64,000 bases of DNA from Paramylibacter kogurei. Its GTDB lineage: Bacteria > Pseudomonadota > Alphaproteobacteria > Rhodobacterales > Rhodobacteraceae. Within the stretch, counting starts at the first letter, position 1. Each line of letters starts with the position of its first letter. The notes under the pieces were generated by a model. That model was not told where the DNA came from. It searched no databases and saw only the letters and a program-made list of their open reading frames with translations. This document shows, piece by piece, positions 6,728-45,094 of the stretch. The stretch covers positions 744,001-808,000 of the forward strand of contig NZ_MDGM01000012.1 of assembly GCF_002742285.1 (NCBI RefSeq), read 5' to 3'. A program made the position numbers and the translations under genes.

Positions 6728-8333
6728 AAGAAACATGAAGAGTTTGTTTAAGGCCAACCGCGTTTATAGCGTCAAGCAAGTCTGTGAAATATGTGGCGTG
6801 ACCCAAAATGCCGTATTGGGGTGGGTAAAAGTTGGATTACATCCATCAGATGTAACCAAACCATGTGTGTTCCAAGGCTCGTCGCTCATAGCGTTTTTTG
6901 AAGCGCAGTCGAAACGAGACAATAGAAGTTTACGAATAGGTGAATTCAAATGTTTCTCATGCCGCGGGGTCTTTTGGCCAGATGCGGAAGCGATCGAATG
7001 CATGCTTTCAACGAAATATGGAAACGTGCAGGTAAAGGCCTATTGTGACGGCTGCAAAACCTGCGCCACAAAGTTATTGAATGCAACACAATGGGACAGT
7101 GTTCAAAAATGTAAAAACACGGGCGCTAGCCTAGATACAATAGACGAAGGAAAAGCAGGTTTTAAGGCTAAAACAGGCATAAAACAGATCACTAGCGAGA
7201 ATACTTTCTACTATTCGAATGATAGATTGCTGCATGGGTACATCGTTTTTATGGGCAAGTATGCGACGAAAACGATAGATGCGCATCTTATTGCGATCCG
7301 AGATTTCGAACGATTTAGCAAGGGTGTCGCGTTCAAACAGATCACCCCGCAACTTGTTGCGCAATATCGAGAAGACCTTATTCAACGCGGGAGTGAACTT
7401 GGCGAAGACGCCATCAGCAATTCGACGATCCGACATCGCGCATCACAACTGCGCTTATTCCTCACTTGGTTGCTTAAGCAAAAAGGGTATCGCAGCCTTG
7501 ATCAGACTTTGCCAGAATATCTGGATCTTCCCAACGCGCTGATGGCCAAAGTCATGCCGGCAAAGGAGAAGGTCTATCCAACGCTATCGGAAGCAGAAGA
7601 GATGCTTCGATCCATGCCCAAGGCAACGCGGTTGGATCGCCGTCAACGCGCCGTTTTTGCCTGTGCTTTTTTAACAGGATTGCGTGCAAACGCATTGGCA
7701 GGTTTGCGGCATCGCGATATGGATTTGCAGAAAAGTATCTTTGTTCAAGATGGCACCAATGGGCGTGCAAAAAACGGCAAGAGTTACCGCGGACGGTTTT
7801 TTCCAGTTCCAGAAATATTTCTGAGTGTGTTCACGGAATGGGTCAATGAAATGGAAACGTTAGGAGCAAATCGCGATGATGCTGTGTTTCCAGCAGAGCA
7901 ATCACTTATTCAAAATCGATCCCCTGGTGTTCAACCGCGCAAACCTTTTGAACCTCTAAAAGGTGGAGATGTCGTTCGACAAGCATTCGTAGTGGCCAGC
8001 AAGAATACCGAACACCACTATCACCCACATTTAGCGCGTGACTGTTTGGCAGCGTTTGGTGTTGAATTGTGCCGGAGCGAAAAAGAAAGAACAGCGTGGT
8101 CACGAAACTTGAGTCACAAAGATATCGAGACCACCCGTCTTCGTTATGGCCCCATGGCTGAGAAAACTTGGCTCGAAGTCATGGAGGTAATTGAAACAGA
8201 AAGAAACGAAACGGATGATGAGAAAGACTTAATTTTAAAGTTCGCGCTGCAAGAATTGCACCCACGCGATCCAGATTATGAAAAAGCGAAAGCTCTCTAT
8301 AATGCGCGAATTGGAAGGCCTAATGAAAGGTAG
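6720..8333 (+). CDS. tyrosine recombinase with N-terminal HTH and zinc-ribbon segments
   Basis: A 537-residue recombinase. The first 70 residues resemble a DNA-binding HTH (YSVKQVCEICGVTQNAVLGW). A Cys-rich segment follows (CFSCRGVF and CDGCKTC, about residues 77-120), which can form a zinc ribbon. After a core-binding domain, the catalytic domain shows R322 (TGLRANAL), H437 and R440 (HLAR), and the nucleophile Y476 (TTRLRYG). All visible catalytic residues are intact. Its coupling to an AlpA-like gene suggests that this pair is a mobility module of its own, separate from the right-end integrase. The start at 6720 versus 6711 is uncertain. Confidence 0.8.
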   Translation: MAKRNMKSLFKANRVYSVKQVCEICGVTQNAVLGWVKVGLHPSDVTKPCVFQGSSLIAFFEAQSKRDNRSLRIGEFKCFSCRGVFWPDAEAIECMLSTKYGNVQVKAYCDGCKTCATKLLNATQWDSVQKCKNTGASLDTIDEGKAGFKAKTGIKQITSENTFYYSNDRLLHGYIVFMGKYATKTIDAHLIAIRDFERFSKGVAFKQITPQLVAQYREDLIQRGSELGEDAISNSTIRHRASQLRLFLTWLLKQKGYRSLDQTLPEYLDLPNALMAKVMPAKEKVYPTLSEAEEMLRSMPKATRLDRRQRAVFACAFLTGLRANALAGLRHRDMDLQKSIFVQDGTNGRAKNGKSYRGRFFPVPEIFLSVFTEWVNEMETLGANRDDAVFPAEQSLIQNRSPGVQPRKPFEPLKGGDVVRQAFVVASKNTEHHYHPHLARDCLAAFGVELCRSEKERTAWSRNLSHKDIETTRLRYGPMAEKTWLEVMEVIETERNETDDEKDLILKFALQELHPRDPDYEKAKALYNARIGRPNER

Positions 8334-32291: not shown

Positions 32292-33512
32292 CTATTCAGA
32301 ATGATGATGCTCTCCTGCAAACAAAAAACTTCCCCAATTCTCCATCATATCACGTCTTTGTTCCAATAAATCAGTGCGATGATACGCGGATTCTGTTTCG
32401 CTCTTGATGGCATGTGCAAGTGCCCGTTCGGCGAGGTCGCGGGCATAACCATTTTCAGAGGCCCAATCGCGAAAGCTTGAGCGAAATCCATGAACTGTGG
32501 CAAAGCGCTGGGCAGTATCACTTGCGATTTTTGCATCACGCAATATTTTGCTCAGCGTCATGTCACTGAGAGGGCTACGCCCTGATTTCGAAAATACCCA
32601 AGGGCCTTCGTGTGCAAAGGGCTTGCGATGCTTTAGTAGATTGAGCGCGGGTGCCGATAATGGAACATTATGCGGTTTGCCCGTTTTGGTGCGATGTGCA
32701 GGGATCGACCAAACATTATTTGGTAGATCAATTTCATCCCATGTTGCACCGCGCACTTCTCCTGATCGCGCTGCAGTCAAAATGAGAAACAGTAATGCCT
32801 GTTTCCCGCAAGTCATATTGTCAGCTTGGAACAGTTGTTTTGCTGCGCTGGGCAGATCCCGCCACGCAACTGCTGGGAAATGTTGAACACGGTCACGTTT
32901 TTTTGGTTGTTTTGGAAGCAGAGCACTCACAGATGACACAGGATTATGTTCGATATACCCCTGCGCGATGCACCAAAGCATCACACGTTCGCAGCGCTGT
33001 TTTAATCGACTGGCTGTTTCTGGTTTCGTGAGCCAGATCGGGCGGAGCGCATCTGCAAAATCAGCAATTCTTAATTGATCAACGGTAACATTTCCTATCT
33101 TTGGAATGGCATAGCTACGTAACGTGTTTATCCATTGCTGCTTGTGCTTGTTGTTTTTAAAGGCTGGAGAAATATCCGCAAAAACCTTTTCACAAGCTGT
33201 CGCGAAGGTCGGAATATTATTCTCTTGCTCTTGAATGCGTGCATCGCGTGCGCGCTGATCAATAGGATCTATGCCATCTTCGATGAGTGCCTTATATTGA
33301 AGGGCTTTGGCCCGCGCTTGTGCAATACTGATATGAGGATAGGTACCCAAACCCATATCGCGTCGCTTACGCGTTTCTGGTGAGACAAACCGCAAGGTGA
33401 ACTTAGCTTTTCCATTTTGAGAAGAGGGTTCAAAGCGCAAACCAGGTACGCCACCAACACTCACAGGTTTATCACCGGTTTTGCATTTTCGTGCTTTTGT
33501 ATCAGTTAACAA
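32292..33512 (-). CDS. P4-type tyrosine integrase
   Basis: A 406-residue integrase of the prophage P4/DUF4102 family, which inserts elements into tRNA 3' ends. The N-terminal arm-binding domain starts at LLTDTKARKCKTGDKPVSV with the family marker RFVSPETRKRRDMGLGTYP. The catalytic domain shows RSGEVRGATW (Arg), HGFRSSFRDW (His-x-x-Arg) and SAYHRTDLLEQRR (Tyr). I choose the TTG at 33512, where family similarity begins; a longer reading from a TTG at 33587 would translate through the AGCCCCACAT repeats. It is transcribed into the island from the right junction. Confidence 0.92.
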   Translation of the reverse strand: MLTDTKARKCKTGDKPVSVGGVPGLRFEPSSQNGKAKFTLRFVSPETRKRRDMGLGTYPHISIAQARAKALQYKALIEDGIDPIDQRARDARIQEQENNIPTFATACEKVFADISPAFKNNKHKQQWINTLRSYAIPKIGNVTVDQLRIADFADALRPIWLTKPETASRLKQRCERVMLWCIAQGYIEHNPVSSVSALLPKQPKKRDRVQHFPAVAWRDLPSAAKQLFQADNMTCGKQALLFLILTAARSGEVRGATWDEIDLPNNVWSIPAHRTKTGKPHNVPLSAPALNLLKHRKPFAHEGPWVFSKSGRSPLSDMTLSKILRDAKIASDTAQRFATVHGFRSSFRDWASENGYARDLAERALAHAIKSETESAYHRTDLLEQRRDMMENWGSFLFAGEHHHSE

Positions 33513-33519
33513 CTCTTTC

Positions 33520-33545
33520 TCAGCCCCACATCCAGCCCCACATTT
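33520..33545 (+). repeat. right-end tandem AGCCCCACAT repeat beside the integrase start
   Basis: The right copy of the 26-base sequence at 6178, with one mismatch, lies 8 bases before the integrase start codon and 128 bases from attR. Integrase binding here could also repress its own gene, as in other tyrosine-integrase systems. Confidence 0.6.
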
Positions 33546-33673
33546 ATTCTGTGATTTGTTGATATTGATTGCGATGGAATGAAGCAAGAAAAATTAATTA
33601 TGTGTTAAAATTCATTTAATAACAAATGTTTAGTGCGCGAGTATGATGTTTCATGCAACATGACTTTAGCGGA

Positions 33674-36765: not shown

Positions 36766-39291
36766 TCAAGGTGCTAGTGGCATCTTTAACAGGGCATCAT
36801 GCAGCGATGTTATATATTCAGGTTTAAACGGATCGAGATGATCGCAATTCAATGCTGTGACCTGATGTTGTGGAAATTGACTGCGCCAATCTGGTCCTTT
36901 GATTTGGGGAATTTGATAAATATCGACTGTTGGACCAGATGCGCAATAGATGAGATCAACAGCATTTGAATATTCCCCTTGTTTAAACGCCCATTCCAAC
37001 AGGATAAGCCGTGAAGGGGCGCGTTTAATTTCATCAAATCGTTTTGCCAATTCCACCGCGATCATTCCGCCCTGACATACGCCCATAATGGCAAAGTTTT
37101 GATCACGTAAAATGCCCTGCATTTGTGTGAAATAATGATCGATTAATGCATCATAAGCGGCGCCTGAATAATTGCGCGAAACTTCGACCAGTGATCGCAT
37201 GGCATAAACGGGTTGATCCTGTCCCATTTGTTTTGCGAGTGCTTCAAATTCGTCTTTGGCCTGACAAATCAAAAATAGGGGCGGTTTGCACCCTTTGGTA
37301 TTTGCGCCGATGATTAAGCTGTCTGGGTGGGTGCGCTCGCCTGACCATGCGCCAAAGTACAGTGCGATTTTTCGGCGCAACGCCGCTGGATCATTGTTTA
37401 TGTCAGCGTCTGACATATTCGCGTTACGCTTGGTTGCGTTTTCCAAACAGCGTGCCAAATTGCGCAACGTTGGTTTTTTATAAAACGCTGGCAAATTTAT
37501 CCGACAGTTGTACTGCTGTTCCACCGCCCCAACCAATTTCGCACAGGTTAATGAATCACCCCCAACGGCAAACAGGTTTGTTTGCCCATCGGGTGGGGTG
37601 GTCATGTTGAACGTGCTTTGCCATTTGGTGATGAGCCAAGGATCAATTTCATCTGTTGATGGTTTGCGGCTAAGCGTTTGATAGGAGTGCGGAATCCACC
37701 GTTTGTTTTGGTGATCTGACAATAAACGTTGCCGCAAAAGTTTACCCGATGGGCCAAATGGGAATTCGGATTGGGCAATCAAATACAGATGCGCAATGGC
37801 AATACCGGTGCGTTCTGCCACGATTTGTTTGACGATCTGGCAAAGCTGTTCTGTTTTATAGGGGCCAAGTTTTGGCGTGGCGATAAAAACCACGAGCGTA
37901 TCAGTTGCGCTCTTGTCATCGCGTGCACTTACAGCGGCGACATACGGTGGGGAAATCGGATCAATTTGGCCGATTATTTTTTCAATATGTTCAAGTGCAA
38001 CGTTTTTACCATTTGAAATAATCGTATTCTTTTCCCGCCCGATGACGGTGATTTGGCCGTTATGCCAAACTCCCAGATCACCTGTGCGAAACCATCCATC
38101 ATGTGTAATTGCATCGCCGCTGGCGGCTGGATCGTTATAATACCCGCTAAATAGCTTGCGCGGTGCATGAACCTCTATCCGTCCTGATTGACCGTTCGCC
38201 ACGCGATTGCCATCGTGATCTGTGATACGCACGGAAACGCCCGGACGGCAGGGGCCGCTTGTGACATCTGTTTGGGCAAAAAACTCTGTTTGGGATTGGG
38301 CGGGGGCCTGACAGATTAATCCGACCTCTGTCATGCCATACCCAATCCCGATGGCTGGGTTTTTGGCACCACATTTTGCCAAAACTTGCGTCATTTCCCG
38401 CACAACCGTTGGAACCGTCATTTCCGCACCAAAACCAAGCGTTTTGACATGTGACAGGTCAAAAATCGCACCAGTGTTGTGAAATTCCGTGATAACACGC
38501 GCAGCGAAACTGCTTGAAAGGCTGATCAGTGGGATTTTGAACTGTTCGATGATGCGCAACCCCGACAGCGGCTGCGCGGCAAAATGATCGGGTTGTAAAT
38601 ACACCATTTGCGGCGTGTTCGGTAATATGAGCGTGCTGAGTGATAGTCCATCAAAGGGTTGCATTGTTAATGATGCATCTAAAACGGGTGCACGTTTTTG
38701 TGTTGGATAGCGATGAAACAAGGTGGGTTCATCCACCACAACCAATTTTTGTCGTGCCGTTGTGCCCGAAGTTTTAAACAAAAACTTAACGGGTTTGCGC
38801 GTAATCGGCGCTGGCGCTGTTTCGCGTGTCGATAACAATTCGCCCAAATCAACGATGCGCTGGTTTGGTAATTTATCCATTAACCCATCAAGCGGAATGG
38901 ACGTGACGATCATTGGTTCAGATAATCGCACCGCCCAATCGGCAACAACATCCACCACTTGTCCGCGTGCAAGAGTGGCTTGGTTGATATGAACGGGCAA
39001 AATATGCACCCCACCAATGCGCATCGCTGCCCAAATGGTTGGGATCAGTTCAAACAGGCTGGTGCAAACCACACAGATTGTATCATTGGGTGTTACACCA
39101 CGCGCGACGAACCCCGCATGAATACGCAGGCTGGCATGGTGCAAATCATCAACGCTGTTGGAAATTTGATCGCCGCGTGCGTTAATCTCGGTGTATTTTG
39201 CTTGTGGGTGAGTGGCGATAAAACCTTGGATCAACGCGAATAGATCGGGATGATTTGCATTCACATATGGTTGGAAATCAAACACGTGCAT
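36766..39291 (-). CDS. NRPS-like protein: adenylation, carrier and thioesterase domains
   Basis: An 841-residue three-domain enzyme. Residues 1-530 form an AMP-binding domain with the ATP loop KFLFKTSGTTARQK, GYGMTEVGL, the WFRTGDLGVW motif and the C-terminal lysine in PFGPSGK. A carrier domain follows with GGDSL (Ser580 is the phosphopantetheine site). The last 200 residues resemble a type I thioesterase, but the nucleophile elbow reads GVCQGG (C739), Cys instead of Ser, with a likely catalytic His in NCDHLDPF. There is no condensation domain, so it activates and offloads a single acyl or amino-acid unit. It overlaps the HExxH gene by 14 bases, so the two are cotranslated. Confidence 0.85.
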   Translation of the reverse strand: MHVFDFQPYVNANHPDLFALIQGFIATHPQAKYTEINARGDQISNSVDDLHHASLRIHAGFVARGVTPNDTICVVCTSLFELIPTIWAAMRIGGVHILPVHINQATLARGQVVDVVADWAVRLSEPMIVTSIPLDGLMDKLPNQRIVDLGELLSTRETAPAPITRKPVKFLFKTSGTTARQKLVVVDEPTLFHRYPTQKRAPVLDASLTMQPFDGLSLSTLILPNTPQMVYLQPDHFAAQPLSGLRIIEQFKIPLISLSSSFAARVITEFHNTGAIFDLSHVKTLGFGAEMTVPTVVREMTQVLAKCGAKNPAIGIGYGMTEVGLICQAPAQSQTEFFAQTDVTSGPCRPGVSVRITDHDGNRVANGQSGRIEVHAPRKLFSGYYNDPAASGDAITHDGWFRTGDLGVWHNGQITVIGREKNTIISNGKNVALEHIEKIIGQIDPISPPYVAAVSARDDKSATDTLVVFIATPKLGPYKTEQLCQIVKQIVAERTGIAIAHLYLIAQSEFPFGPSGKLLRQRLLSDHQNKRWIPHSYQTLSRKPSTDEIDPWLITKWQSTFNMTTPPDGQTNLFAVGGDSLTCAKLVGAVEQQYNCRINLPAFYKKPTLRNLARCLENATKRNANMSDADINNDPAALRRKIALYFGAWSGERTHPDSLIIGANTKGCKPPLFLICQAKDEFEALAKQMGQDQPVYAMRSLVEVSRNYSGAAYDALIDHYFTQMQGILRDQNFAIMGVCQGGMIAVELAKRFDEIKRAPSRLILLEWAFKQGEYSNAVDLIYCASGPTVDIYQIPQIKGPDWRSQFPQHQVTALNCDHLDPFKPEYITSLHDALLKMPLAP

Positions 39292-40264
39292 CCGTCATGG
39301 AAAACGCGCGAACAACGTCATAGGCATCTGATAAAATCTGTGCGGCCAATGGGGACATATCTCCATCCGCTTTGATCACGTCATAACCATCAAAAAATCG
39401 TTTGCTATTTTTGTTGATTGATTGGGTTAATTCATCGGATGTGATTGCATCCAATGGATTGCTTTTTAACAACATATGATTGAATTCTGCCATGCGCGCA
39501 CAAACGATTGTTGCGTGGTATATGCCATCCATCGGGCGTGGATCGCTGCGCAATGGCGAGCTGTAATTTTGATCCAGTGGATTAAACACCAACGGGTTAT
39601 CAAAGCTTAGCCCAAACAGGCGGGCATGGGTCGTTTCATGCACCAGAAAATTCACCACTGATAACAGGGTTTGATGGGCATCAATATTGACGAATGTAGC
39701 GCCCCAAGTCATCAAGGACGTGACGCTACCAAAACCAGCGATTTTGGGGTCTTTGGTTTTGCTTGATCCACAGATTAAATTGAAACAACCGTTGATTTCA
39801 TCCCAAAGCTTCGCATCAGTTGATTTAATGATTTCAAATGCTTGATGCAGATGGGATGTAAAATTTTCAAAATCCGCATCGCTGGGTGGGATCATAGGTG
39901 ATTGGCCAACTTCGGAAAACAAAAGCGGGGGGAACAAATCGTAATTTGCACCAAGCGCGGTTTTGTTAAATGGGCAAATCGACAACCCATCACCACCGGA
40001 TGTATTTCGCATCGCATCCCAATGGTTTAGGATTTGACCCGTCGAACCATTTTGCGCCGCAATCACAAGATTAAAATAATGTGCAAACATGCTGGCGGGT
40101 TGGCGGGTGGTTTTGATCCGTTCCACCATTTCGCCAATTTCATCATCCGATTGATTGATTAATTCGGAAAATGTTTGCGCAATATGAACAAGGCTTTGCG
40201 CGAGGTTGGCGCGCAAAGCCGTATCAATTTCATCTGGGTGTTGAGCCCCGTCGAATATTTTCAT
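39278..40264 (-). CDS. HExxH motif protein, putative 2-oxoglutarate-dependent peptide beta-hydroxylase
   Basis: A 328-residue protein with the sequence VNFLVHETTHARLFGL (H209, E210, H213), the HExxH domain known from RiPP clusters and now described as alpha-ketoglutarate-HExxH peptide beta-hydroxylases. The N-terminal half is helical (MKIFDGAQHPDEIDTALRAN...) and may bind the leader peptide. No protease pro-domain or signal is visible, so a cytoplasmic modification enzyme is more likely than a peptidase. It lies 31 bases after the precursor-like gene and overlaps the NRPS-like gene. Confidence 0.7.
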   Translation of the reverse strand: MKIFDGAQHPDEIDTALRANLAQSLVHIAQTFSELINQSDDEIGEMVERIKTTRQPASMFAHYFNLVIAAQNGSTGQILNHWDAMRNTSGGDGLSICPFNKTALGANYDLFPPLLFSEVGQSPMIPPSDADFENFTSHLHQAFEIIKSTDAKLWDEINGCFNLICGSSKTKDPKIAGFGSVTSLMTWGATFVNIDAHQTLLSVVNFLVHETTHARLFGLSFDNPLVFNPLDQNYSSPLRSDPRPMDGIYHATIVCARMAEFNHMLLKSNPLDAITSDELTQSINKNSKRFFDGYDVIKADGDMSPLAAQILSDAYDVVRAFSMTDARV

Positions 40265-40295
40265 CTGAATTGTTCAGGAAATTTGATCGGATCAA

Positions 40296-40505
40296 TCAGA
40301 TTTCGACTTGGCCGCGTTTGGAAAATAACCGACCAAGTTCAGCAACGCTTTCTTGTTGGGGTTCATTTTCGACAACCCCACGTTTGGAAAACAGACGGCC
40401 CAGATCACCATCGGTTTGTTTGTCATCTGTCGCATTCGATGCGTGAAGTTTGTTGAACTGACTAAAACCGAATAATTTACCTGTGTCTAATTTTGACTGT
40501 GCCAT
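40296..40505 (-). CDS. putative RiPP precursor peptide with duplicated core-like motif
   Basis: A 69-residue peptide with an ideal AAGGAGA seven bases before its ATG. The N-terminal third (MAQSKLDTGKLFGFSQFNKL) could be the leader. The C-terminal half repeats LGRLFSKRG with a 22-residue period: residues 35-43 and 57-65, each preceded by D or E and followed by x-V-E. A small gene with internal repeats directly before a HExxH modification enzyme fits a precursor. An alternative is a small structural or regulatory peptide. Expression would be the first in the operon. Confidence 0.65.
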   Translation of the reverse strand: MAQSKLDTGKLFGFSQFNKLHASNATDDKQTDGDLGRLFSKRGVVENEPQQESVAELGRLFSKRGQVEI

Positions 40506-40862
40506 AAGCTGTCTCCTTGTATGTATGTGTGGATGCTGACATCAAACTTGGAACCGGTCAACATTTGTTAACCAATTGTTCGACCTTTTTTGAAACGCAT
40601 CCGTCAGAATAGGGCAGGGTTCCAACGTTTCAAAAAATAAATTCAAAAAAATTGAATTTGTTGCGACGGAAAAATCCCGACGTTTCGTTGAACCTTTGGT
40701 TGCACCATTTATCAGCCAAGGAAATGAAAGCGCATAAATTTTGCACAGAAGGGGAAAGCGGAAAGTAATCTGGTTTCCAAATTTTTGCTCTTGGTTTTTG
40801 GGTTGATACGATTTTGATACGTCTTGCTGGCCAGCAGGGAATAAAATGAAAGGCAAAATGCC
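40506..40862. other. divergent promoter region between RiPP-like cassette and efflux operon
   Basis: About 357 bases that drive transcription both ways. No gene is supported; a 104-codon leftward frame has no ribosome binding site. An inverted repeat GGTCAACA/TGTTAACC lies at 40556-40573, about 50 bases before the precursor gene, and could be an operator. Confidence 0.45.
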
Positions 40863-41999
40863 GTGAAGAATTTATTGGTTATGTCCACAACGCTCGTCAT
40901 TTTAATGGGCGCTTATGTTGCATCATTTGGGATACCCGCGCCACTTGCGCCAATTATCGGAATGGATGAAGCCGATCAGCAAGCATCACAACAACAAGAT
41001 GGCCCACGCAGGGGTGGTGGTCGTAACAGCGCAACCAGCGTTGTGATGAATGCGTTGGAAACAGAAAGCTATACGATTGTTTTGCGCACCATCGGGAGCG
41101 CAGTTTCAAAACGCAACGCAACCGTGATCACCAGTGAAACGGGCGAAGTGGTTGAAACCAATCTGCGAGCGAATGCCTTTGTCGAAAAAGGTGACGTGTT
41201 GGTGCGATTGGATGATCAAACCCAAGTTTTACAATATGACATCGCATTAGCAGAGCTAAAACAAGCGCAAGACACGGTAGAGCGGTATGAAAATCTGCGC
41301 CAATCTGGCAATTCCACCATTACCCAAGTCACCATGTCAGAGGCAATATTGGCACAACAACTTGCCGAGGCAAACGCAGGCTTGGCCAAAATCGCGGTCG
41401 AGGATCGCACAATCAAAGCGCCGATTTCTGGGCGCCTTGGGTTAAGCGATATTGATCTTGGCGATGTGTTATCAACCAATGACGTGGTTGTTGAAATTGA
41501 CGATTCAACCACATTGTTGGCTGAATTTGAGGTCCCTGAGCGATCCATCGGTCTGTTGGTTGAAGGGAAAACCGTTCTGGTTGGCACGCCAAGTTTTGCT
41601 GGCCGCACGTTCGAGGGCAAAATTGTCGCCTTTGATAGCCGTCTTGATACCGTCACACGCAGCGCCACCGTGCAAGCAGAGGTCGATAATTCCGATGGGA
41701 TGTTATGGTCCGGGATGACGCTGGGTGTGCGCATGTTAGAGGAAACAGATCCTTTACCTGTGTTGCCAGCAACTGCAATTACTTGGAACCGCGACGGCTC
41801 AGGAATTTGGGTGGTAGATGGCGATGGTAAGACCATTCGAAAACCCGCAACAATTCGATATCGCGATGGCGATCGGGTGTGGGTTGATACGGATGTTACT
41901 GTTGGTACATCTGTGGTGGTAGAGGGCGCGGCCAAGCTACGCGATGGTGCAAATGTGGTTGATGTTGCTGCACAATCTGTTGGTGGAGCACGTTCATGA
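40863..41999 (+). CDS. RND efflux periplasmic adaptor (MFP)
   Basis: A 378-residue HlyD/AcrA-type adaptor linking an inner-membrane RND pump with an outer-membrane channel. One N-terminal membrane segment, a Gln/Gly/Arg-rich linker, a lipoyl-like domain (SETGEVVETNLRANAFVEKGD), a short coiled-coil hairpin (residues about 125-165) and the barrel segment IKAPISGRLGL are visible. The start is GTG 40863 with AAAGG upstream. The next gene starts within its stop codon (ATGA). Confidence 0.9.
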   Translation: MKNLLVMSTTLVILMGAYVASFGIPAPLAPIIGMDEADQQASQQQDGPRRGGGRNSATSVVMNALETESYTIVLRTIGSAVSKRNATVITSETGEVVETNLRANAFVEKGDVLVRLDDQTQVLQYDIALAELKQAQDTVERYENLRQSGNSTITQVTMSEAILAQQLAEANAGLAKIAVEDRTIKAPISGRLGLSDIDLGDVLSTNDVVVEIDDSTTLLAEFEVPERSIGLLVEGKTVLVGTPSFAGRTFEGKIVAFDSRLDTVTRSATVQAEVDNSDGMLWSGMTLGVRMLEETDPLPVLPATAITWNRDGSGIWVVDGDGKTIRKPATIRYRDGDRVWVDTDVTVGTSVVVEGAAKLRDGANVVDVAAQSVGGARS

Positions 42000-44900
42000 G
42001 CATTGAGAAAGTGCTTCACAAAGCAGGCTTTGCCGATACATTTGTCGCGCGTCCCATTTTTGGGATTGTTTTAAATCTGTTAATCATCATTGCAGGGCTG
42101 GCGGCATTGTCCAGTGTGGACGTGCGCGAAATGCCCGATGTGGATCAGCCTGTCTTATCCATTCGCACCACTTATGATGGTGCCGTTCCCACAACCGTTG
42201 ACACAGAAGTCACCCAAGTTTTGGAAGATGCGCTCAGCGCATTAGAAGGTTTATCATATATTGAATCAACCTCTAGCTCTGGTTCGAGCCGTATGACAAT
42301 TGATCTATCTGATGGCACAGATATTGATATTGCTGCGAACGAGGCACGTGAAATTGTTTCGGACACTTTGCGTCAGTTGCCCGATGATATTGACGATCCA
42401 ACTGTGAGCAAAAGTGATTCAAATTCCGATGCGATTATTCGGCTTGCGTTGATGGGTGATGCAACATTTGACACATTGACCCAAATCGCAGAAGGCCCAG
42501 TTTATGAACGCCTGTCCCTGATCGACGGGATCGCAGAGGTCACAGTGCGCGGCAATCGATCAAACGAATTTCGCGTCACACTTGATATGCTGTCTTTGGC
42601 GAGCAGAGGATTAACAGTATTTGATGTGACCACGGCATTGGAAGCCTTGCGCGACGATACGGCGTTGGGGGAATTGGAAACTCAATCACAAACGCTTGCG
42701 CTTCGGGTTGGGAATGAAACCGTTACCGTTGATATGATTAAACAAATTCCGATTAATGACACCACACAAGTGTCTGATGTCGCATTGGTTCAATTCATGC
42801 CCGAAGATCGCGATGTATTTGCGCGGGTGAATGGGCAAACGGCCATTGGGTTGGATATTACGCGCCAATCTGCGGGCAATACGCTTGAAATTTCACGCGC
42901 GGTGAATGTTGCGGTGGATGAATTGCGCGCCAATCTGCCCGAGGGTGTTCAGCTCATCATTGCATCAGATGATGGTATTTTCATCGAAGGATCGGTGAAC
43001 GAGGTCACAAAATCAATCTTGCTTGCTACTGGAATTGTGATTGCGGTGATCTTTCTGTTTTTACGATCTGTTCGCGCCACGTTTATTCCTGCGGTGACAA
43101 TTCCAGTCGCACTTATCGGGACGGTTGCGGCGATCTGGCTGACAGGGTTTTCGATTAACACGATTAGTTTGTTGGCACTGGTACTGGCCACGGGGATGGT
43201 TGTGGATGATGCAATCGTTGTGATTGAAAATATCGTGCGCAAACGAAAGGCAGGCATGGGTGCCTTTGCGGCGGCGGCTGCCGGTACGAACGAGGTGTTC
43301 TTTGCCGTGATTTCCACCACTGCAACATTGGCCGCTGTGTTCATTCCAATTTCATTTTTGCCTGGTCAGGCAGGGGGCGTTTTCTCTGAATTTGGTTTTG
43401 TTCTGGCATTTGCCGTGACGCTATCTTCGCTTACGGCATTGACCTTGGCACCTGTATTGTCTGCCTTGCTTGATCCCGGCAAACCAAATGGCAATTCAAA
43501 CAAACCGTCCAAAATTGTGGCGCAACTTTCGCATGGGTTCGATACGGTGATGGATTGGGCAATCCGCACGCCGGTGTTTATTTTGGGAATTGCTGCCGCA
43601 TTTGCGATGATCGCACTTGGCGCTGCATCAAATTTGCCATCAACCGTTACCCCATCCGAAGATCGCGGTTTCTTTTTGGTTCAGGCACGCGGCGCATCCG
43701 ATACCACGGTGGAATATTTGGACACACAAGTGAGCCTTGTTGAAGAAATTCTCTCTCCTTACCAAGAAGCTGGCGATATTGCAGCGGTTCAAAGCATTAT
43801 CGGCGTTGGGGGTGGAACAAATGCCTTTATCATTGTGCGCCTACCAGATTGGAGCGAACGCGATTTTACTCAACAAGAGCTTGTCGCAAAAATTAGCGGT
43901 CAATTGTCCAGTGTGCCCGGTGTTCAGGTCAGCGCACGTTCGACAAATAGCTTGAACATTCGTGGCGCAGGGCGCGGGCTTAGCTTTGCCATTACTGGTA
44001 CAAATATCGAAAATATGACTGAGGCCGCCGATGCCTTGGTGGTGGCGATGTCACAAGATCAAACATTTTTGAACCCGCAACTGTCCAATGACAGTGTACA
44101 AGCACAGCTAGAGGTCACAGTCGATGACGCCGCCGCCAATGCAATGGGGTTAAGTGCTGCCGAAGTGACCAGCACCATTAGCGCATTGGTACAAGGTGAA
44201 ATCGCTGTGAGTGTGTTTGAAAATGACACCGAGATTGACGTGAATGTTGTGCCCGGTGGCCCGCCCATTGATGATCCATCTGATATTGCATCTGTGTCGT
44301 TGCGTCTTGATGATGGTGGCTATGTTCCACTGTCGGCGGTGGCATCAATGGACACAATCGTAAGCCAAGCACAGATCGAACGCCAAGGTGGTGCGCTATC
44401 GGTTGCGATTCAGGCAAACCTTGGCCAAGGCATTGATTTATCCGCATCTATGGATCGCATCCAAGAAATCGCCCAAGAGGTGTTGCCCGATGATATGAAT
44501 ATCATTTTCACGGGCGAGGCGGCGACATTAAACGATAGTGAATCGGGGATTTACACTGTTTTTGCCGTGGCATTGATTGTCGTGCTGTTGGTTTTGGCCG
44601 CCCAATTCGAAAGCTTTTCAAGCGCGGTGGTTATCATTTTAACCGTGCCATTTGGTATCGCCGCGGCATTGCTTGCGATTTCAATTTCGGGTGGTTCGTT
44701 GAATTATTATAGCCAAATCGGGCTGGTGATGTTGATCGGTGTGATGGCCAAAAACGGAATTTTGATCGTTGAATTCGCAAATCAACTGCGCGAGGCAGGC
44801 GAAGATATCGACACCGCCATTCGCAACGCATTGCGGTTGCGCATTCGCCCCGTGATGATGACCATGGTGTCCACCGTTTTTGGTGGGCTGCCATTGATCC

Positions 44901-45094
44901 TTACCTCTGGTGCGGGTGCCGAGGCACGCGTTGCCGTGGGCTGGGTAATTGTTGGCGGGCTTGGATTTGCCACGGTGTTCACATTGTTTCTGACACCAAT
45001 TTTTTACCGCTGGATCGCGGTTTGGGGCGGTGCGCCGGGTGCGGCGGCAAAACGTTTGCAGGTGGAAACAGGACAATTATCACAACAGGGGTAG
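41996..45094 (+). CDS. RND efflux permease (HAE1/AcrB type)
   Basis: A 1032-residue proton-driven drug/lipophile exporter. It starts with a typical cytoplasmic head and TM1 (FVARPIFGIVLNLLIIIAGL), shows GMVVDDAIVVIENIVRKR in TM4 (Asp pair for proton transfer) and GVMAKNGILIVEFANQLR in the second half. It belongs to the HAE1 rather than the heavy-metal class. Coupled to its adaptor; no outer-membrane factor gene is adjacent. Confidence 0.93.
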   Translation: MSIEKVLHKAGFADTFVARPIFGIVLNLLIIIAGLAALSSVDVREMPDVDQPVLSIRTTYDGAVPTTVDTEVTQVLEDALSALEGLSYIESTSSSGSSRMTIDLSDGTDIDIAANEAREIVSDTLRQLPDDIDDPTVSKSDSNSDAIIRLALMGDATFDTLTQIAEGPVYERLSLIDGIAEVTVRGNRSNEFRVTLDMLSLASRGLTVFDVTTALEALRDDTALGELETQSQTLALRVGNETVTVDMIKQIPINDTTQVSDVALVQFMPEDRDVFARVNGQTAIGLDITRQSAGNTLEISRAVNVAVDELRANLPEGVQLIIASDDGIFIEGSVNEVTKSILLATGIVIAVIFLFLRSVRATFIPAVTIPVALIGTVAAIWLTGFSINTISLLALVLATGMVVDDAIVVIENIVRKRKAGMGAFAAAAAGTNEVFFAVISTTATLAAVFIPISFLPGQAGGVFSEFGFVLAFAVTLSSLTALTLAPVLSALLDPGKPNGNSNKPSKIVAQLSHGFDTVMDWAIRTPVFILGIAAAFAMIALGAASNLPSTVTPSEDRGFFLVQARGASDTTVEYLDTQVSLVEEILSPYQEAGDIAAVQSIIGVGGGTNAFIIVRLPDWSERDFTQQELVAKISGQLSSVPGVQVSARSTNSLNIRGAGRGLSFAITGTNIENMTEAADALVVAMSQDQTFLNPQLSNDSVQAQLEVTVDDAAANAMGLSAAEVTSTISALVQGEIAVSVFENDTEIDVNVVPGGPPIDDPSDIASVSLRLDDGGYVPLSAVASMDTIVSQAQIERQGGALSVAIQANLGQGIDLSASMDRIQEIAQEVLPDDMNIIFTGEAATLNDSESGIYTVFAVALIVVLLVLAAQFESFSSAVVIILTVPFGIAAALLAISISGGSLNYYSQIGLVMLIGVMAKNGILIVEFANQLREAGEDIDTAIRNALRLRIRPVMMTMVSTVFGGLPLILTSGAGAEARVAVGWVIVGGLGFATVFTLFLTPIFYRWIAVWGGAPGAAAKRLQVETGQLSQQG

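Follow-up and report, generated by a model that had tools for sequence, protein, structure and literature searches.

Why would genes for a small repeat-bearing peptide and a predicted peptide oxygenase be followed directly by a gene for a fragment of nonribosomal peptide synthetase (NRPS) machinery? This arrangement is found in the α-proteobacterium Paramylibacter kogurei (order Rhodobacterales), within a 64,000-nucleotide stretch of contig NZ_MDGM01000012.1 (assembly GCF_002742285.1, positions 744,001 to 808,000) that is called the window below. Three genes, all on the minus strand, encode in turn a putative precursor peptide, a protein with an HExxH motif, and a protein with adenylation, thiolation (carrier) and thioesterase domains (A-T-TE). 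The HExxH gene begins 31 bases past the precursor gene and shares 14 nucleotides with the A-T-TE gene. We consider it rather probable that the three genes form a cassette for a ribosomally synthesized and post-translationally modified peptide (RiPP), in which the oxygenase hydroxylates the core of the peptide and the A-T-TE protein acylates it. RiPP and NRPS pathways normally follow separate logics, and a compact three-gene set of this kind would join them.

A preliminary description of this DNA, based on its letters, had pointed to a 69-residue repeat-bearing peptide with a good ribosome binding site, a protein carrying H209-E-x-x-H213 and an 841-residue NRPS-like enzyme overlapping it by 14 bases, and each of these features is present. 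The peptide (MAQSKLDTGKLFGFSQFNKLHASNATDDKQTDGDLGRLFSKRGVVENEPQQESVAELGRLFSKRGQVEI) holds two copies of LGRLFSKRGxVE, and AAGGAG lies 7 nucleotides before its ATG. The second protein, of 328 residues, reads HETTH at residues 209 to 213. The third matches the Pfam families AMP-binding (3e-22), PP-binding (1e-11) and Thioesterase (5e-6), and retains the catalytic motifs TSGTT, GGDSL and GxCxG as well as the C-terminal GK of the adenylation (A) domain. The source genome has a single TIGR04267 gene and two genes of the phosphopantetheinyl transferase family.

The HExxH protein had also been assigned to the type that β-hydroxylates RiPP precursors, rather than to true peptidases, and this assignment is borne out by family, profile and fold. 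The protein is a member of NCBIfam TIGR04267 (aKG-HExxH-type peptide β-hydroxylases, where aKG is α-ketoglutarate), with 74.5 bits against a cut-off of 40. A profile built from 18 relatives matched ChlH (8s5f) at E 8e-12, as well as a second HExxH structure. An AlphaFold2 model (mean predicted local distance difference test score of 95.9), used as a Foldseek query, matched the ChlBH HExxH domain (8s5f, E 3e-10) and SjiH (22ob, E 3e-6), with no further match below E 0.5. Residues H209, E210, H213, N193, SPLR(236-239), R243, P244, G247, H250, A251 and V254 are invariant across 55 sequences, and the alignment indicates that the SPxR, RP and HA motifs are common to the oxygenase group of the window and ChlH. 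H250 may be a metal ligand, and the arginines may hold α-ketoglutarate. Sequence and modeled fold together indicate that the protein is probably an Fe(II)/α-ketoglutarate oxygenase of the ChlBH type. A zinc metallopeptidase (zincin) was considered and rejected; no peptidase appears among the solved-structure profile matches, the significant fold matches or the Pfam matches.

A related HExxH gene is present in 16 of 397 genomes of the window's family. A scan of a larger collection (genome_contigs) used one conserved pattern and kept 80 of 123 loci, which come from Proteobacteria, Verrucomicrobiota, Acidobacteriota and others, so these counts are lower bounds. This search needed an alignment as query, as a scan of genome_contigs with the HExxH protein alone gave no matches. 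In a plasmid collection, all matches were distant and partial. Genes at the related loci, which are designated below by L numbers, were called mechanically.

Small open reading frames (ORFs) directly upstream of these HExxH genes share a leader, L-D-x-x-K-L-[LF]-G-F, and a core with K-x-G. The preliminary description had named lack of conservation of the small gene as grounds for giving up its proposal. Instead, when a strict pattern of leader plus K-x-G was applied in all six frames, 49 ORFs were found in the 114 kb just upstream of HExxH genes, whereas the remaining 1,205 kb of these loci had none. Thus, precursor and oxygenase are genetically tied. The strict pattern is present in 42 of 88 loci and a looser one in 54 rows including the window; because the pattern was derived from the same loci, these shares are no independent estimate, although the upstream confinement is still informative. 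Eight of the precursors have no match in NCBIfam even at E 10, and the window precursor has none in Pfam, so the family is without a name in the libraries searched. Precursor genes occur in tandem at L012, L039, L049 and L050. The locus therefore has the hallmarks of a RiPP system: a small encoded precursor adjoining a modifying enzyme, with a conserved leader and a variable or repeated core.

Two further observations concern this family. In Histidinibacterium lentulum (L039/L115), one HExxH gene is preceded by five tandem precursor genes. Widespread unnamed precursors with the leader LDxSKLLGFK and a tandem AKxGxKxGxK core immediately precede stand-alone HExxH genes of Proteobacteria and Verrucomicrobia (L054-L128; for example, L056:2185-2331, L096:8688-8870 and L058:8538-8888), at loci that do not have the A-T-TE module.

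Such associations bear on what the oxygenase acts upon. NRPS pathways often include oxygenases that work on substrates bound to a carrier, and the enzyme of the window could in principle modify an acid held on the carrier domain rather than the peptide. However, many genomes pair this oxygenase family with a precursor of the same kind and have no carrier protein nearby, and characterized relatives act on peptides (PMC12636437, PMC13060819), which makes action on a carrier-bound acid very improbable. Characterized aKG-HExxH enzymes hydroxylate His, Asp, Phe, Gln and Pro, with one case of oxidative backbone cleavage (PMC12636437, PMC13060819; also PMC12257519, PMC12707348). The latter reaction raises the alternative that the oxygenase cuts the backbone at K-x-G to leave an amide terminus, so that the module acts on a shortened peptide. 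PflC and PosC perform both reactions, at ARMD (PMC12636437), and the conserved Gly could be the residue cleaved. However, many relatives have several tandem K-x-G sites, all of which would be cut, and we consider cleavage of this kind improbable.

The predicted co-occurrence of the NRPS-like gene with this gene pair proved to be real and clade-specific, as judged from profile searches, by which the A, T and TE parts were located at each locus, and from a quick tree of oxygenases. A fused A-T-TE protein adjoins the oxygenase in at least six other organisms: an α-proteobacterial metagenome-assembled genome (L049), Bauldia (L050), a member of Hyphomicrobiales (L051), Panacagrimonas (L052), Xanthobacter autotrophicus (L053) and Bradyrhizobium diazoefficiens (L064). 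Among the matches listed, L049 to L053 are the five whose HExxH proteins are most similar to that of the window. The A-T-TE gene is directly downstream of the HExxH gene in L049, L050, L051, L053 and L064; at L052 the contig end falls inside the A domain, and ambiguous sequence interrupts the TE of L051. Within the tree (n = 89), carriers of the fused version form one clade (SH-like approximate likelihood ratio test support of 98), in which the window groups with L049, L050 and L052 at 99.

A version with separate genes occurs in five Rhodobacteraceae (L012, from the window's own genus, and L042, L044, L046 and L124). Here a TE-like gene is upstream and the A-domain and carrier genes are downstream of the oxygenase gene, and the precursors have 28 to 52 residues with cores such as GAAKVGxxEP. 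Carriers of this version form a different oxygenase clade (support of 99). The TEs of the two versions are recognizably related and their A domains have no mutual match, and the A domain was therefore exchanged or recruited separately. Three other loci (L045, L047 and L119) have HExxH, A and carrier genes with a TE gene on the opposite strand, and no recognizable precursor. At L012, where the HExxH gene occupies positions 6866-7888 of the minus strand, the order is TE-like gene, three tandem short precursor genes, HExxH, A and carrier; genes that resemble a protein kinase and a phosphatase by eye are located upstream.

The genes flanking the fused cassettes are not shared between organisms, so the three genes make up a conserved unit. 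In addition, none of the 32 other genomes of the genus has DNA that matches the cassette DNA. These two facts suggest horizontal spread of the cassette. No empty cassette site was seen in the same-genus genomes; the sequences on either side of the cassette match separate locations there. Fused cassettes are rare: in a sample of 385 alphaproteobacterial genomes, searches with an alignment of the fused-clade oxygenases, and then for relatives of the hits, found more oxygenases, none with A, T or TE parts nearby among those examined. When A-T-TE proteins were sought in the same sample, none of full length adjoined an oxygenase, and the sole near full-length match was at L173. All four genomes of one genus (L144, L151-L154) carry HExxH genes that score well with the fused-clade profile; neither an A-T-TE gene nearby nor a precursor recognizable by motif was found at these loci.

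What might the A-T-TE protein activate? The solved structures nearest to its A domain are the McyG A-PCP didomain (4r0m) and a keto-acid-selecting NRPS (6ulw). The position of Asp235, which binds the amino group of amino acid substrates, was read from an alignment to a canonical NRPS A domain encoded by the same genome. This position appears as Leu in the window protein, as T, A, I, V or M among its fused homologs, and as a gap or Ser in the separate A domains. An A domain specific for amino acids would be expected to retain the Asp, and its apparent replacement, an alignment-based reading that is not beyond doubt, makes a carboxylic acid without an α-amino group the more likely substrate.

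All fused homologs, and the five separate homologs examined, have Cys as the TE nucleophile. NRPS thioesterases with Cys are less common than others; characterized examples are the domains of SulM and ObiF, which produce lactam and lactone rings (PMC11298585). The match at L173 (L173:3-3737) is an NRPS termination module whose TE (GNCQG, Cys) is related to that of the cassette and has a C-terminal extension resembling those of L053 and L064. A termination module of this type is a possible source of the A-T-TE module.

The core of the precursor differs with the presence of the module. Cores of the fused group, LGRLFSKRGVVE and LGRLFSKRGQVE in the window and AGALLSKIGVGE, LGRLLSKVGE, IGRLLSKVGTDE, ALAFNKRGLSGE, GIAFNKRGEG and ELAFNKIGSE elsewhere, all contain [LF]-[SN]-K-x-G with an invariant Lys. 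At every locus with both a module and a recognized precursor (12 of 12), Glu follows K-x-G within three residues. Lys after K-x-G is found at none of these 12 loci, whereas it is present at 38 of the 41 without a module (Fisher p 2e-9, counted over related loci that are not independent events). The core reads K-x-G-x-x-E where the module is present and, at most loci, K-x-G-x-K where it is absent.

These results also bear on whether the module belongs to the peptide pathway at all. Most relatives of the precursor-oxygenase pair have no A-T-TE gene, and TE relatives occur in ordinary NRPS modules (L173), as would be expected if the protein made or handled a separate small molecule while an independent RiPP system shared its operon. 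This alternative seems unlikely, because A-T-TE tracks the oxygenase clade in seven organisms with differing flanking genes, the version with separate genes appears repeatedly in a second clade, and the change in core sequence coincides exactly with the presence of the module. Alternatively, the module might activate a carboxylate of the peptide itself, either the Glu of K-x-G-x-x-E or the C terminus, and couple it to Lys to give a crosslinked or cyclized peptide. Side-chain rings in known RiPPs come from other enzymes, such as ATP-grasp enzymes in graspetides, and the A domain resembles domains that activate small acids; we therefore regard self-coupling as quite improbable, even though module loci keep both Lys and, shortly after it, a Glu where other loci have Lys, and even though Cys thioesterases are able to form amide and ester rings (PMC11298585).

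From the observed gene set, protein families, conservation, co-occurrence and conserved core, we infer a route for acylation in which the order of steps, the modified residue, the acid and the attachment site are the conjectural parts. The conserved leader L-D-x-x-K-L-[LF]-G-F would dock the 69-residue precursor. The oxygenase would then oxidize the core repeats LGRLFSK-R-G-x-x-E, most likely by hydroxylation of the invariant Lys or a neighbor. The A domain would adenylate a small carboxylic acid, probably one that is not an α-amino acid, and load it onto Ser580 of the carrier. Cys739 of the TE domain would take the acyl group and pass it to a nucleophile of the peptide, either the Lys side-chain amine or the new hydroxyl, to give an acylated ribosomal peptide. 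Transfer to the modified peptide is proposed because the A domain probably favors a non-amino acid and the TE has a Cys nucleophile. Acylation of a Lys is already known from another RiPP, where a different enzyme is used (PMC13060382). The more specific proposition, that the fused and separate versions in two oxygenase clades are true RiPP/NRPS hybrids whose Cys thioesterase serves as an acyl transferase onto the hydroxylated peptide, is put forward tentatively, with chances a little short of even.

Several points weigh against this route. The acid cannot be read from the A-domain sequence, and Asp235 was assigned by aligning sequences that are distant from one another. For L053 and L064, the alignment does not show the histidine expected in the TE, and there is no protease or exporter gene inside the cassette. 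The core switch tracks two clades and may represent only one or two events. Known substrates of aKG-HExxH enzymes are His, Asp, Phe, Gln and Pro (PMC13060819), a list that does not yet include Lys. Moreover, a simple shift of +16 Da in the product is not guaranteed, because the related PflC also cleaves the backbone oxidatively (PMC12636437).

If the proposed acylation takes place, the cassette would offer a small, portable way to attach an activated acid to a ribosomal peptide, and would widen the range of substrates of aKG-HExxH enzymes. Beyond the window, precursors with the leader L-D-x-x-K-L-L-G-F and the core A-K-x-G-x-K are tied to HExxH genes across Proteobacteria and Verrucomicrobia.

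Positions of the cassette features within the window
Feature	Position	Strand	Basis
Precursor peptide gene, 69 aa	40296..40505	-	ORF with ribosome binding site; leader and core common to precursors adjoining related HExxH genes
Ribosome binding site AAGGAG, 7 nt ahead of precursor ATG	40513..40518	-	Sequence
Leader motif LDTGKLFGF, residues 6-14	40464..40490	-	Common form L-D-x-x-K-L-[LF]-G-F
Core repeat 1 LGRLFSKRGVVE, residues 35-46	40368..40403	-	Fits fused-group consensus [LF]-[SN]-K-[RVI]-G-x-x-E
Core repeat 2 LGRLFSKRGQVE, residues 57-68	40302..40337	-	Fits fused-group consensus [LF]-[SN]-K-[RVI]-G-x-x-E
aKG-HExxH-type peptide oxygenase (predicted), 328 aa	39278..40264	-	TIGR04267, profile match, AlphaFold2 model, Foldseek
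HETTH motif (H209, E210, H213)	39626..39640	-	Invariant among 55 relatives
A-T-TE NRPS-like protein, 841 aa	36766..39291	-	Pfam; homologs at related HExxH loci
Adenylation domain	38137..39174	-	Pfam PF00501; nearest structures 4r0m, 6ulw
Carrier domain, GGDSL, pantetheine Ser580	37444..37638	-	Pfam PF00550; GG[DE]SL in all fused homologs
Thioesterase domain, GVCQGG, nucleophile Cys739	36778..37329	-	Pfam PF00975; Cys kept in homologs

Two neighboring regions of the window were also noted. HlyD-like and AcrB-like (RND efflux) genes at 40863-45094 are divergent from the cassette and could encode an exporter; they are not conserved with other cassettes. A 431-residue ORF at 32292-33587, about 3 kb beyond the cassette, resembles a phage-type tyrosine integrase by eye, and ARAGORN found no tRNA gene near it.

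The preliminary description knew of no pathway with this gene set, and we likewise found none in the open-access literature, neither a RiPP pathway with A-T-TE nor one with this precursor family; subscription journals are mostly outside this coverage, so the missing description is no proof of novelty. The closest known systems share single parts of the cassette. The ChlBH/aKG-HExxH peptide β-hydroxylases (TIGR04267, IPR026337) resemble its oxygenase in family, fold and the motifs H-E-x-x-H, S-P-x-R, R-P and H-A, but the cassette enzyme is stand-alone, its precursor belongs to another family and its partner is NRPS-like. PflC and PosC, from the Pseudomonas pfl and pos clusters, are likewise stand-alone aKG-HExxH enzymes beside a RiPP precursor (PMC12636437). 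However, their partners are an MNIO-nitroreductase and a GNAT protein, and their precursors have a nitrile-hydratase-like leader and a Gln/ARMD core. RiPP clusters with an aKG-HExxH enzyme also include those of biphenomycin (BpmH/BipH) and nitrilobacillin (PesO) (PMC12257519, PMC12707348, PMC13060819), in which the partners are MNIO, radical SAM, JmjC or asparagine-synthetase-like proteins and no carrier or thioesterase is reported.

Other likenesses concern acylation. Nostolysamides are ribosomal peptides with an acylated Lys side chain (PMC13060382). Their acyl group, in contrast, is transferred by a GNAT enzyme from acyl-CoA onto a lanthipeptide scaffold, with no A-T-TE protein. For lipolanthines and goadvionins, the acyl chain is delivered from a carrier protein. 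These compounds are also RiPPs that carry a long acyl chain (PMC10435860 for lipolanthines), but the chain is of polyketide or fatty acid origin on an avionin-type RiPP, and no single A-T-TE protein is involved. The TE domains of SulM and ObiF share the Cys nucleophile and the formation of a new bond to an N or O nucleophile (PMC11298585); they close nonribosomal peptide rings intramolecularly, whereas the TE of the cassette is proposed to transfer its acyl group onto a ribosomal peptide. Finally, McyG A-PCP and 6ulw, the nearest solved counterparts of the A domain, are parts of large assembly lines, whereas the A-T-TE protein of the cassette stands alone beside a RiPP precursor.

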